IMG/VR virus record: IMGVR_UViG_3300005732_000040
Span: 1 to 22,283 of that record
Source of the DNA: a virus
Strand: one strand, 5' to 3'
Length of the DNA: 22,283 nucleotides
The notes below the pieces were generated by a model. The model was not told where the DNA came from, ran no database searches, and saw nothing but the letters and a program-made list of their open reading frames with translations. Made by a program: the position numbers and the translations under genes. This document shows positions 1 through 12,024 of the stretch, piece by piece. Every line of letters starts with the position of its first letter. The stretch's first letter is position 1.

Positions 1-4
1 TCTA

Positions 5-24
5 GTGTGTCTATAAAGACACAC
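5..24. repeat. Perfect 8-bp hairpin (GTGTGTCT / AGACACAC)
   Basis: GTGTGTCT at 5-12 pairs perfectly with AGACACAC at 17-24 around the 4-base loop ATAA. No T-tract follows on the plus strand, and the bases after the stem are CCCACCC then an A-run, so it does not read as an ordinary intrinsic terminator in that direction. It is the first of several inverted repeats crowded before the terminase gene. It could be part of a structured RNA, a protein-binding site or packaging-related DNA. The hairpin is seen directly and its role is unknown. Confidence 0.6.
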
Positions 25-123
25 CCCACCCAAAAAACAGCGTAGCATGTATATATATAATATACCCCTGTGACATATAGACCAAAAAAACAGGGGTGGT
101 ATCATGATGATGAATTGGGTGGG
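25..123. repeat. Nested inverted repeats forming a possible two-stem structure
   Basis: CCCACCCAA at 25-33 is the exact reverse complement of TTGGGTGGG at 115-123. Inside that pair, ACCCCTG at 64-70 is the exact reverse complement of CAGGGGT at 91-97. The inner stem can be extended by ATA/TAT if a three-base bulge is allowed. These are nearly the only GC-rich words in a very AT-rich stretch, so chance pairing is less likely than usual. The arrangement fits either a folded non-coding RNA or leader, or a DNA site for packaging or replication. No RNA family is recognised. Confidence 0.45.
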
Positions 124-133
124 AGCCTCGCCT

Positions 134-156
134 ATCTAATAAGACTCTTATTAGAT
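134..156. repeat. 23-bp perfect palindrome with one central base
   Basis: ATCTAATAAGA at 134-144 is followed by a single C and then its exact reverse complement TCTTATTAGAT at 146-156. As RNA it would form a roughly 10-bp stem with a 3-base loop, followed by a T/A-rich run (TCTTATATATA) and a 7-T run at 182-188. As DNA it is a dyad of operator size. The stem is AT-rich, so an intrinsic terminator would be weak. A dimeric repressor or activator site is an equally good reading. Confidence 0.5.
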
Positions 157-299: not shown

Positions 300-431
300 A
301 TGATGAAAAGAATAAAAACAGCTTTGCCTATCTTCTTTGTCATTTTAAAGTGGTGTTTTTACTTGCCAACTTTGTCATGGTTGGGGTATATTGTAGTGAT
401 GATGATGTGGGGTACATTTTATGACAAGTAG
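300..431 (+). CDS. Possible 43-residue membrane peptide overlapping the terminase start
   Basis: A 43-codon frame opens with two Met codons and a basic N-terminus (MMKRIK). A long hydrophobic stretch follows (about residues 8-38, rich in F, L, I, V, W and M), and the frame ends in DK. Its stop lies 11 bases inside the terminase gene, which would suit translational coupling, because the terminase has only a weak ribosome-binding site of its own. The hydrophobic length could make one long or two short membrane helices. Arguments against it are the lack of a Shine-Dalgarno sequence, the short length in AT-rich DNA, and an overlapping promoter candidate. If real, it may be a small holin-like or membrane-active peptide. 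The function is not recognised. Confidence 0.35.
   Translation: MMKRIKTALPIFFVILKWCFYLPTLSWLGYIVVMMMWGTFYDK
363..392 (+). promoter_or_regulatory. Candidate sigma70-type promoter for the terminase/head operon
   Basis: TTGCCA at 363-368 matches the -35 consensus TTGACA at 5 of 6 bases. TATATT at 387-392 matches TATAAT at 5 of 6. The spacer is 18 bases. Transcription would begin near 399 and give a short leader of about 20 bases before the terminase ATG at 421. The site lies within the possible 43-residue frame, so the two interpretations compete. Chance matches are common in AT-rich DNA. Confidence 0.4.
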
Positions 432-1986
432 TTTTCCAGATGACTATGAAGAACTAGGTAGGGTAGGAACCTTTGCAGAGCTTTCATCGTCACTTGAACA
501 GTTGGCAATGGCAAATGCAAAGAATGACTTCCTGACCTTTGTAAGAATGTTTGCGCCTACGCTGGTATCTGACTGGCAAATGGGTAGGCACATTGAAGTT
601 CTTTCTCAGAAACTACAGGACGTGCATGAAGGCAAGATCAAAAGGTTGATGGTGTTCCTACCACCACGTAGTTCAAAGTCAGTTATATGCTCAAAGCTTT
701 TCCCTGCATGGTACATAGGTAATTCACCTAACCATGAGATTATGTCAGTTTCCCATAGTGACCAATTGTCATCAGACTTTGGACGTACTGTCAGAGATGT
801 AGTTAACACTGAAGAGTTCCAAAGAATATTTAAGGGTGTCACACTAAGGGCTGACGTTAGGGCAGCAGGTAAGTGGAAAACAAATCTTAATGGTTCATAC
901 TACGCTGCAGGTGTAAGATCACAGATCGCAGGTCGTGGTGCACATATCGCAATTCTAGATGACGTAATGTCAGAAGAGGATTCATTCTCTGAAAGTGGCA
1001 GAAAGTATATTAAAGATTGGTATCCTTCAGGTCTACGAACCCGTATCATGCCTAACGGTTCAATTATCATTATCAACACCCGATACCATTTTGATGATCT
1101 TTGTGGTTGGCTTTTAAAGCAAGAGCTAGAGAATGACTTGGAGTATTCATTGCCGTGGGAAGTAATCAGTATTCCTGCATGGATAGATGAACCTGCAAGT
1201 GAACTGCTGGGCCTACCTGTAGGGTCTTCCTACTTCCCACAGTGGAAGCCGGACGAGCTATTGCGTATTGATGAAGAAGAAATCAGAAACAGCAATGGTA
1301 GCAAGTATTGGGAAAGCCTTTACATGCAGAACCCCTCACCTGAAGAAGGTGGGCTGATTAAACGTAAGTGGCTGCAGGACTGGCCGTATGGCGACCCGCC
1401 TAGCTGTGACTTTGTAATCCAGACTTACGATACTGCGTTCTCAACCAAGACAACGGCTGACTATAGTGTTATCCAGACATGGGGCATCTTTGCCATGCCT
1501 GAAGAATATGAGGATGGTACTGAAGACTTTGCCTCTAACCTAATCTTGTTGTCAAACATCAAGGGTAGGTTTGAATATCCTGAGTTGAGAAGACTGGCAA
1601 AAGAAATGTATATGAAGTTTATGCCTGATGTATGTATGATTGAAAAGAAGGCAAGTGGTCAATCCCTTATTCAGGATATGAGACGGTCAGGGTTGCCAGT
1701 CATGGAATACCTGCCTGATCGTGACAAGACTTCAAGGGTATATGCTTCCACGCCTATGCTTGAGTCAGGCAGGGTATGGCTACCAGCAGAAAAGGCATGG
1801 GCTGAAGATTTGATAGGTGAAGCATTGTCATTTCCCTATGGTCAGCACGATGACCAAGTGGACGCAATGACAATGGCAATCCAGTATGTCAAGGAAAGCT
1901 GGAGATTGACACATCCTGAAGACCCTGACTGGGAAGATGATGTTAATCCACGTAGGCAGAAAAAGGTTGCATACTGGAGAAGTTAG
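421..1986 (+). CDS. terL: Terminase large subunit
   Basis: The 521-residue product has the two-domain layout of phage packaging motors. The N-terminal ATPase shows a Walker A-like loop PPRSSKS at residues 81-87, a Walker B segment AILDD at 177-181 and a coupling-type motif INTRYHFDD around 219. The C-terminal nuclease shows YDTAF at 336-340, IEKKASGQ around 407-414 and HDDQVDA at 477-483. These supply the acidic metal ligands expected of the RNase H-like fold. The enzyme would cut concatemeric DNA and pump it through the portal encoded next. No small-subunit gene is recognised in the window; it may lie upstream. The ATG start has only a weak purine run (TGGGG) before it. Length is normal for the family, and identification is firm from motifs and position. 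Confidence 0.95.
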   Translation: MTSSFPDDYEELGRVGTFAELSSSLEQLAMANAKNDFLTFVRMFAPTLVSDWQMGRHIEVLSQKLQDVHEGKIKRLMVFLPPRSSKSVICSKLFPAWYIGNSPNHEIMSVSHSDQLSSDFGRTVRDVVNTEEFQRIFKGVTLRADVRAAGKWKTNLNGSYYAAGVRSQIAGRGAHIAILDDVMSEEDSFSESGRKYIKDWYPSGLRTRIMPNGSIIIINTRYHFDDLCGWLLKQELENDLEYSLPWEVISIPAWIDEPASELLGLPVGSSYFPQWKPDELLRIDEEEIRNSNGSKYWESLYMQNPSPEEGGLIKRKWLQDWPYGDPPSCDFVIQTYDTAFSTKTTADYSVIQTWGIFAMPEEYEDGTEDFASNLILLSNIKGRFEYPELRRLAKEMYMKFMPDVCMIEKKASGQSLIQDMRRSGLPVMEYLPDRDKTSRVYASTPMLESGRVWLPAEKAWAEDLIGEALSFPYGQHDDQVDAMTMAIQYVKESWRLTHPEDPDWEDDVNPRRQKKVAYWRS

Positions 1987-2037: not shown

Positions 2038-4560
2038 ATGGCTGTAGAAAGAAATCCGTTTGATCGCATTGAAGGAGACAATATCATTGAGATTGGTATT
2101 GGTCCTGATAGCACTGAAATCGAAACAGGTCCAGTTAATATGGAGTTTGAAGATGACGGTGGTGTGGTTATTGAGTTTGGTAATTCAGATGAAGGACCAG
2201 ATGAAATTCCTGAATATGCAATGGACGATGAAGAAGGTTTTTTCAAGAACCTTGTTGACGATCTAGACGAGGACACTCTTGAGGAAATTGCAAATCAGGT
2301 ACTTGACAACTATGAAGCTGACAAAGAAAGTCGGGCTGAGTGGGAGTCAATGTTTGAGCGTGGCTTTGATCTCCTTGGTCTAAAGATTGAGGAAGCATCT
2401 GAACCATTTGAAGGTGCCTGTACTGCAGTCCATCCCCTAATTATTGAGTCAGCAGTTAAGTTCCAGTCAAAGGCAACGCAGGAGTTATTTCCTCCTGCTG
2501 GTCCTGTCAGAACACAGATCGTAGGTAAGTCAGATGAGCGGCGCGAACAACAAGCGCAGCGCGTCAAGACATTTATGAATTACCAGTTGACTGAGCAGAT
2601 TCCTGAATACTTCGATGAAACAGAGCGGATGCTATTTAACCTTCCGCTAATCGGTTCAGCATTTAAAAAGATTTACTTTGATACTACACTCAATAGGCCA
2701 GTCTCTGAGTTTGTGCCTATTGACCAGTTCTTCGTGTCGTACTACGCCACGGACCTGCGACGGGCAGACCGTTATACTCACTTAATCTATCGCAGTCCCA
2801 TCGAACTCCAACGCTGCATTAACGCAGGAATGTATGCGGAGATCGACCTACCTACGGCTGCAGTTCCCTCTCAGACCGCTATGGCTGAGAAGATGAATAC
2901 AATTCTAGGTCTTTCCCCCTCTTCACAGCATGACCCGCAGTACGTTCTTCTTGAACAGCACTGCTATTTAGAATTGCCAACGGAACTTACTGAAGAGGAT
3001 GACGGTCTCGCCCTACCCTATATTGTAACGATTGAAGAGCAGTCCAGAAGTGTTTTGTCAGTTCGCAGAAACTACAACCCTAACGACCCTTCTAAGCAGA
3101 AGAAAATGTTTTTCACTCATTATCGCTACGTTCCCGGCTTTGGATTCTACGGCCTTGGTCTTATTCACTTCCTTGGCAATCTTACCATGACCGCTACCGC
3201 TGCAATGAGAGCATTGGTAGATGCAGGTCAGTTTGCTAACCTTCCCGGCGGATTCAAGCAGAAGGGTGTACGGATTGTTGGAGACAATGATCCTATCAGT
3301 CCCGGTGAGTTTAAGGACGTTGAAGCAACGGGCGTTAATTTGCAACAGGCAATTGTGCCACTTCCATACAAGGAACCAAGCGCAACCCTGTACAACATGC
3401 TTAACTTTATTTCACAGACAGGCCAGAAGTTTGCTGACACCACTGAGCAGATGGTGTCGGATGCTGCCAGTTATGGTCCAGTCGGTACGACAATGGCATT
3501 GCTTGAAGCAAGTTCAAAGTTCTTCAGTGCTATTCATAAGCGTTTGCATAGGGCACAGAAGGACGAGTTTAAACTTCTTGCAAGATTAAACTACGAGTAC
3601 TTGCCAGATGAAGAAGCACATGATATTCCCGATGACACAATTACAATTTATCGCCGTGACTTTGATGGGCGTGTTGATGTAGTTCCTGTTAGTGATCCTA
3701 ACATTCCTTCCAATGCACACCGGATGGCCCTCGCACAACTTGCGCTTAACCTTGCACAGTCAAGTCCTCCGGGTATGTTTAATATGCAAGAGCTTAATCG
3801 CACAATCTTGTCAGCGGCTAATGTTCCTAACCTTGATAAGATTATGCCTGATAAGCCTGATCCTATTCCACTTGATCCAATGTCAGATATTCTGGCAGCA
3901 GTTAAAGGGATGCCTATTCAGGCATTTGTAGGGCAGAACCATGATGCACATGTTGCAATGAAAACAGCATACATTCAAGACCCAATGAACGGTGCTAATC
4001 CTGCAATGCAAAGAATTGTTCCGGTGTTACAGGCAAACATTCAGGAACACATGATCCTCAAGTATCAGGAGCAGATTGGCGGTATGGCTGAACAAGCTGA
4101 ACAACAGGCTGCAATGGCAGGTCAGTCAGTTGATGAGCAGACTGCTGAAATGATTATGGCACAGGCAGCACAACAGATTGCACAGACTAACATGACTCTT
4201 GCCAAGCAGGGTATGAACATTACACCTGAACAGCAGATGGTACAGCTTGAAGGTCAGCGTCTCAATATTGAGCAGCAGAAACTTCAAGCACAGATTGCCA
4301 AGGAACAGGCTGAAGGTGCACTGAAGAATAGAGAGCTACAGCTTAAAGAGATGAAACTTTCAGTTGATGCTTATACTCAGGGTGCAAGTGAAATTCTTAA
4401 GTCAGATGAGAAAGAAAAAGATCGTAATGCTAAGAAGGCAATGAAGGCAGTTGAAATCTTTGCTGACCTACTACAACAGGAAGAGAACCTGACCAATGAT
4501 CGCATACTAAAAGCTGCGGATATTGTAACTGACTTGGCAAAAGACGATACGATTGAATAA
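2038..4560 (+). CDS. Portal protein, P22-like large type
   Basis: This 840-residue protein follows the terminase, the usual place for a portal. The acidic N-terminus (about residues 1-100) precedes a portal core with the segment EPFEGACTAVHPLI and further text on QELFPPAGPVRTQIVG that I associate with large podovirus portals. The C-terminal roughly 170 residues are Gln-, Glu- and Lys-rich and strongly helical, as expected for the extended barrel of P22-type portals. The dodecamer would sit at one capsid vertex, be the DNA channel and dock terminase and later the adaptor. It is longer than P22 gp1 (about 725 residues). The ribosome-binding site is GGGGAAG before the ATG. The stop overlaps the next start by one base. 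Confidence 0.88.
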   Translation: MAVERNPFDRIEGDNIIEIGIGPDSTEIETGPVNMEFEDDGGVVIEFGNSDEGPDEIPEYAMDDEEGFFKNLVDDLDEDTLEEIANQVLDNYEADKESRAEWESMFERGFDLLGLKIEEASEPFEGACTAVHPLIIESAVKFQSKATQELFPPAGPVRTQIVGKSDERREQQAQRVKTFMNYQLTEQIPEYFDETERMLFNLPLIGSAFKKIYFDTTLNRPVSEFVPIDQFFVSYYATDLRRADRYTHLIYRSPIELQRCINAGMYAEIDLPTAAVPSQTAMAEKMNTILGLSPSSQHDPQYVLLEQHCYLELPTELTEEDDGLALPYIVTIEEQSRSVLSVRRNYNPNDPSKQKKMFFTHYRYVPGFGFYGLGLIHFLGNLTMTATAAMRALVDAGQFANLPGGFKQKGVRIVGDNDPISPGEFKDVEATGVNLQQAIVPLPYKEPSATLYNMLNFISQTGQKFADTTEQMVSDAASYGPVGTTMALLEASSKFFSAIHKRLHRAQKDEFKLLARLNYEYLPDEEAHDIPDDTITIYRRDFDGRVDVVPVSDPNIPSNAHRMALAQLALNLAQSSPPGMFNMQELNRTILSAANVPNLDKIMPDKPDPIPLDPMSDILAAVKGMPIQAFVGQNHDAHVAMKTAYIQDPMNGANPAMQRIVPVLQANIQEHMILKYQEQIGGMAEQAEQQAAMAGQSVDEQTAEMIMAQAAQQIAQTNMTLAKQGMNITPEQQMVQLEGQRLNIEQQKLQAQIAKEQAEGALKNRELQLKEMKLSVDAYTQGASEILKSDEKEKDRNAKKAMKAVEIFADLLQQEENLTNDRILKAADIVTDLAKDDTIE

Positions 4561-11674: not shown

Positions 11675-12024
11675 TGGCTCTCAGTGATTCAGAAAAGGCA
11701 AAGCTAAAGCGTTATGGCTTGTCAGGTCTCAATAAACCAAAGAAGACACCAAGCCATCCTACTAAGAAAGGCGTAGTTGCCGTTCGTACAGGTTCTGGCG
11801 GTGTAAAGGTAATTCGCTTTGGTGCACAAAGCATGGGCCACAATTATTCTCCTGAAGCACGTAAGTCATTTAAGTCACGCCATGCAAAGAACATTGCACG
11901 TGGTAAGGAAAGTCCTGCATACTGGGCAGATAAGTTTTTTTGGGCAGGTAAGGGCGGTTCAAAGAAAATGCCACCTAAGTCACAAAAAGTAGTTCGTGGT
12001 ATTAAACGTAGAGGTAAAGCATAA
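11674..12024 (+). CDS. Basic protein with KRYGLSGLNKPKKTPSHP motif (DUF6321-like)
   Basis: The 116-residue product has KLKRYGLSGLNKPKKTPSHP near residues 10-29, VKVIRFGAQSMGHNYSPEAR in the middle and FKSRHAKNIARGKESPAYWA later. It ends in a Lys/Arg tail. This order matches a small family I know as DUF6321, which recurs in phages. The conserved HAKNI, His and Asp/Trp residues make it look folded rather than just a basic tail. A role cannot be stated. The start overlaps the previous stop by one base, with GGAG 9 bases upstream; the stop in turn overlaps the next ATG. Confidence 0.82.
   Translation: MALSDSEKAKLKRYGLSGLNKPKKTPSHPTKKGVVAVRTGSGGVKVIRFGAQSMGHNYSPEARKSFKSRHAKNIARGKESPAYWADKFFWAGKGGSKKMPPKSQKVVRGIKRRGKA

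Follow-up and report, generated by a model that had tools for sequence, protein, structure and literature searches.

Phage promoters are known to carry sites for host regulators, such as LexA in phage GIL01 (PMC4551915) and CtrA in phages of Alphaproteobacteria, and the use of host LexA, Spo0A and CtrA by phages has been described (PMC9437464). The LexA box published for Caulobacter has the form GTTC-N7-GTTC (PMC12700426, PMC9578287). Judged by the terminase large subunit (TerL), the closest isolates to the phage studied here are the Pelagibacter phages HTVC023P and HTVC027P (40-41% identity), in which the late genes, including GroES, are arranged in a similar order. Unlike the relatives of the present locus, these two phages show no detectable copy of the core motif described below in the sequence examined, and neither did the sequence examined of 023Pt_psg01. 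HTVC023P (L080) carries short direct repeats of ACTAGGAAA at 11687-11763, upstream of the gene for the terminase small subunit, and these are possibly control or origin repeats of its own.

Gene setting of the locus

The window, i.e., the whole stretch of DNA analysed here, is a virus record of 22,283 bases. Its first 10,372 bases are identical to the contig L003/L116. Both contigs start at one and the same position, within the hairpin array treated below, and this shared start is probably an assembly break at the palindromes. Two coding features open the record:

421-1986, plus strand: gene for the terminase large subunit (phrog_38, E 2e-102), the first large gene of the rightward late arm
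303-431, plus strand: small hydrophobic ORF, MKRIKTALPIFFVILKWCFYLPTLSWLGYIVVMMMWGTFYDK, just before terL

Portal, GroES and capsid genes follow terL in the window. The product of the small ORF, which has a counterpart in L008 (MKKIFSTFLVILRLLFLSFFFLGVGYIEYMMF...), is possibly a small membrane protein.

Relatives in IMG/VR reach further to the left and have leftward genes left of the element, with terL and the late genes running rightward. In G002, the leftward arm encodes a T7-like primase-helicase, PolA, ribonucleotide reductase and ThyX. Because leftward genes lie on the left and late genes on the right, the element marks the divergence of early and late genes, and the region is a divergent early/late intergenic region, not simply a leader of terL. 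G015 (106,894 bases; L232-L237) holds two cores and two TerL genes about 58 kb apart; it is a chimera made in assembly or else two related genomes joined together. Relatives of terL were sought in bacterial genome contigs as a link to a host, and none was found there.

A conserved DNA core upstream of terL

A profile HMM built from 22 relatives revealed a conserved motif of ~75-100 bp upstream of terL, made up in the window of CCCCACCC, an A-tract, TATATATATA, and CATATAGACCAAAAA...AGGGG. Its parts are as follows:

24-100, plus strand: conserved core, an unstructured DNA motif found by the profile HMM in one copy per genome, in fixed orientation, upstream of terL
24-31, plus strand: C-box CCCCACCC, followed by the A-tract (32-37); near-invariant columns in the 40-sequence alignment A1
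50-60, no strand assigned: TATATATATAA tract, a candidate DNA unwinding tract, in the same place in most relatives
74-96, plus strand: CATATAGACCAAAAAAACAGGGG block, conserved more strongly than the rest of the core, with invariant or near-invariant columns; most contigs scanned have one strong site per genome

The motif was found in nearly all relatives with enough upstream sequence. Further TerL relatives were fetched as an independent set, and 39 of its 40 loci with at least 700 bases upstream, none of them used for the profile, carry the core. It occurs once per phage, always on the strand of terL and 0.2-1.4 kb upstream of it (224 to 1377 bases before terL), at the divergence point of the replication arm (leftward) and the late arm (rightward). 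The C-box with its A-tract, the TATATA tract and the CATATANNACCAAAAATACTAGGG block are the constant parts of the 40-sequence alignment. The core is a DNA sequence motif rather than a folded RNA.

Inverted repeats in the first 156 bases

The earlier note had described four exact inverted repeats with GC-rich arms at 1-156 of the window, and had held that no annotated gene explains them. All four pairs of exact reverse-complement arms are present where it placed them:

5-24, no strand assigned: perfect 8-bp hairpin GTGTGTCT-ATAA-AGACACAC (arms 5-12/17-24), the rightmost unit of the left-flank tandem hairpin array
25-123, plus strand: long-range pairing 25-33/115-123, full only in the window, with 7/9 pairs in close relatives and absent elsewhere
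64-97, plus strand: hairpin 64-70/91-97, confined to the window's clade, where its sequence is identical, and lost elsewhere
134-156, no strand assigned: AT-rich 11-bp hairpin (134-144/146-156), with 5/11 pairs left in 88%-identical relatives

These repeats exceed chance, as five inverted-repeat centres with arms of at least 7 fall within 1-156 against 0.61 in dinucleotide shuffles, none of 500 shuffles reaching five. The arms are not GC-rich in the fourth pair, which is AT-rich (18% GC). The region also folds better than shuffled controls, a comparison that the note had proposed: its folding energy is -53.1 kcal/mol, whereas shuffles give -30.3 +/- 4.1 (z = -5.6 on the plus strand and -4.2 on the minus strand). 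Searches gave no Rfam covariance-model match, no tRNA and no tmRNA.

The pairing is, for the most part, private to the window and its closest kin. Across 40 aligned relatives, 41.7% of cells retained the window's pairing against 39.3% when shuffled, the alignment yielded 0 consensus base pairs and no consensus fold, and neither 25-33/115-123 nor 64-70/91-97 showed a single double change among relatives. Only the first hairpin (5-24) is part of a maintained structure, and the other three are clade-specific; they may be by-products of the C-run, the G-run and the AT-rich composition of this clade.

A structured flank to the left of the core

The 200 bases to the left of the core fold much more strongly than shuffled sequence on both strands in most clades (z about -3 to -12), which is not so for the core itself. 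In the independent set, the mean folding z was -2.81 for the left flank, -0.28 for the core, -1.43 for the right side and ~0 inside terL. Repeats were abundant in the left flank at 62% of 53 non-redundant loci and in none of 50 coding controls. An unstructured, single-copy core in fixed orientation lies at the divergence point, with a flank rich in repeats or palindromes on its left. A hairpin directly beside the C-box was considered as a universal feature and set aside, as support for it was partial (mean z -0.9).

The tandem hairpins that make up this flank in the window's clade, and in its neighbours L008 and L052 (84% identical), have a density of 5-7 per kb; elsewhere the figure is about 1-3. 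A covariation test, which covers the two clades A and B only, found 94.7% of cells in the array paired and a score of 0.119, against 0.047 for shuffled and 0.03-0.05 for slid alignments, higher than all 500 shuffles and all slid controls. Six in-register double changes separate fully paired hairpins of clade A from those of clade B (U-A to C-G, A-U to U-A, U-A to A-U, G-C to A-U, U-A to A-U and U-A to C-G). The hairpin at 5-24 (helix 9) is invariant across both clades, and the compensatory changes occur in the array units adjoining it. Paired conservation with compensatory changes is a property of the left-flank array in these two clades, and it is there, not within 1-156, that the covariation for which the earlier note had proposed a test appeared. 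The note's interpretation is partly supported: structure is under selection nearby, but a multi-stem leader over 1-156 is not supported. As the contig begins inside the structured region, most of that region lies outside the window. A DNA-pattern search for more relatives of the A/B array found none: its matches, in coding DNA of unrelated phages, were attributable to chance.

Operator-like arrays in relatives

Fur operators share a 19-bp consensus box, GATAATGATAATCATTATC. Matches with at most 4 mismatches to this box numbered 40 in 63 kb of flank and 37 in 958 kb elsewhere (redundant loci counted), with up to 5 per locus at 2-3 mismatches. Boxes of the Fur type occur in L024, L030, L032 and L037 (2-4 mismatches) and not in the window's clade. 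Left of the core in these four loci, the boxes stand in tandem (e.g., GAAAATGAGAATCATTATC), and they are absent elsewhere in the same loci.

A second pattern is that of the alphaproteobacterial LexA operator, present in several relatives and absent from the window and its own clade. GTTC-N7-GTTC boxes numbered 42 in 19.6 kb of left flank and 36 in 333 kb elsewhere, with a gap of almost always exactly 7 and up to 7 boxes per locus against a shuffle mean of 0.01. Clusters of LexA-type boxes lie left of the core in L017, L019, L027, L029, L046, L048, L186, L189 and L221, some of them arranged as inverted arrays stepped by 11 bp. A further 14 boxes lie in L046 near 3503-3769, between leftward genes. 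The spacing of units in some arrays is ~28-30 bp, close to that of the hairpins in the window's clade, and these arrays stop ~10 bp short of the C-box.

No phage-encoded LexA, Fur or HTH_3 was found in 10 genomes, and a tyrosine integrase domain was present in one of them (G016). With no HTH_3 repressor in the 10 and an integrase domain in one, the phages look lytic. As these genomes lack LexA, Fur and HTH_3 of their own, the sites, if they work, would be read by host proteins.

Promoter-like sites and a model of the control region

Promoter-like sites were scored at 10/12 or better. The left side and core together had 0.37 leftward against 0.08 rightward sites per locus (0.18 shuffled), and on the right side rightward sites numbered 0.50 and leftward sites 0.37 (0.26 shuffled), statistics that suggest leftward sites on the left and rightward sites on the right. 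The window has one candidate:

363-392, plus strand: weak candidate sigma-70 late promoter, TTGCCA-18-TATATT, which lies inside the 303-431 ORF and does not reach significance in the window by itself

L087/L096 have a perfect TTGACA-17-TATAAT right of the core, in the same intergenic spacer as the window's candidate, and five more relatives have a TTGACA-16/17-TATAAT-like sequence directly after the core. Several clades have such sigma-70-like late promoters on the right of the core, which is therefore probably absent from the late mRNA. In the window's clade, the left flank gave no convincing early promoter. A leftward sigma-70 promoter inside the core (TTGGTA-17/18-TATAnT) gave a peak in the first 40 sequences and was rejected, as it was not replicated in independent loci. 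In L017, L019, L024 and L027, a terminator-like hairpin on the leftward strand (CCACCCCC...GGGTGG beside an A-run) follows the core on its right at a distance of ~50-100 bases, and beyond the hairpin AAAAATACTAGGGT occurs a second time.

The data support a new control element: it is conserved, and its flank is either structured or rich in operator-like sites. We favour, at a probability of roughly 60% and on sequence evidence, the reading that the region acts in cis as a DNA control hub, placed between two divergent transcription units, the early one leftward and the late one rightward, in an HTVC023P-like podovirus family. As the promoter-like sites face outward, the core would lie between divergent promoters and may be a site of protein assembly, with the TATATA tract as an easily melted stretch. 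The arrays on the left would be operators, or hairpins in the window's clade, that set when the leftward early operon is read; the hairpin at 5-24 is the last unit of this clade's array. The earlier note was right that the element, non-coding and regulatory in character, is left unexplained by the annotated genes.

Alternative explanations

The leading candidate for a specific function of the core is a phage replication origin, in which an AT-rich melting tract would be flanked by lineage-specific, iteron-like arrays; this is compatible with a control hub, and we regard it as plausible, albeit at less than even odds. The single copy, fixed orientation and TATATA tract of the core agree with it, as do the repeat arrays on one side and the minimum of cumulative GC skew at the element. 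The few ORFs that run against their arm keep the skew of that arm, but they are putative genes only, and no initiator was identified. Moreover, the skew maximum sits at the point of gene convergence and not opposite the element, even where the arms are very unequal; for this reason the skew may follow gene orientation and is no proof of an origin. A packaging site (cos or pac), another suggestion of the earlier note, would suit an element placed immediately before terL and, in the most distant clade, before a terS-like ORF. Nevertheless, three genomes (G001, G002 and G014) overlap their own ends by 123-141 bp at unrelated places, as in circular assemblies, and this circularisation elsewhere disfavours a fixed-end site such as cos. 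Many contigs pass through the element unbroken, its distance to terL varies sixfold, and terS is not adjacent in annotated distant relatives, so that we consider packaging improbable. The note's remaining proposals, a multi-stem RNA leader of the late (terminase) operon or an undescribed non-coding RNA over 1-156, draw on the strong folding of these 156 bases themselves. Both are contradicted by the 40 relatives, in which no pair is shared by consensus, pairing is near the shuffled level and the stems are lost outside the closest kin; with no Rfam match and late promoters downstream of the core in several clades, a conserved RNA at 1-156 is very improbable.

Two further readings concern the left flank. 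The hairpins of the window's clade might form a structured 5' leader of the leftward early mRNA, for which the covariation and the six double changes speak. The array nevertheless folds equally strongly on both strands, with no GU asymmetry favouring RNA over DNA, and template switching at quasi-palindromes can also yield compensatory changes. With only two clades compared and no strand asymmetry, RNA and DNA are indistinguishable here, and we hold the RNA leader to be somewhat unlikely. In relatives, the arrays may be operators for host LexA or Fur that tie early phage transcription to SOS or iron status, a tentative reading from sequence, at less than even odds, that is favoured by the enrichment of both box types in the flanks, the match to the Caulobacter box, the lack of such regulators in the 10 genomes and the precedent for phage use of host LexA, Spo0A and CtrA. 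Against it stand the absence of LexA and Fur arrays in the window's clade, the small number of boxes that overlap a clear promoter, and half-site runs every 11 bp, which are unusual for LexA and could be iterons. It is attractive to speculate further that a universal early/late core is paired with swappable arrays copying host operators (LexA, Fur and others), that close lytic relatives thereby time their early genes by different host states (DNA damage, iron), and that the window's clade swapped its operators for a hairpin array, but this whole scheme seems rather unlikely.

Significance and comparison with known systems

The focus thus moves from a leader RNA of the terminase gene to a divergent DNA control region whose structured part lies mostly beyond the window. 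The core can be used as it stands to mark the control centre in a large family of uncultured aquatic phages; it is also a candidate origin, and swapped operator-like arrays would make host-stress sensing by lytic phages through host repressors testable.

Like the divergent early/late regions of phages that use host RNA polymerase, the element lies between leftward replication and rightward structural modules with outward promoter-like sites; unlike them, it has an unusually conserved single-copy core, unnamed in the libraries and literature searched. In having an AT-rich tract with short repeats next to it, at a period of ~11 or ~29 bp, it resembles iteron-type origins; it differs from them in that no initiator was identified and that its repeat units, depending on the lineage, either match known host operators or are hairpins of no relation to them. 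As in GIL01 and the CtrA cases, relatives carry clusters of sites that, by their sequence, look like those of host regulators beside the phage control region; unlike in those cases, one type of site (LexA, Fur or others) replaces another from one close relative to the next, and these phages appear to be lytic.
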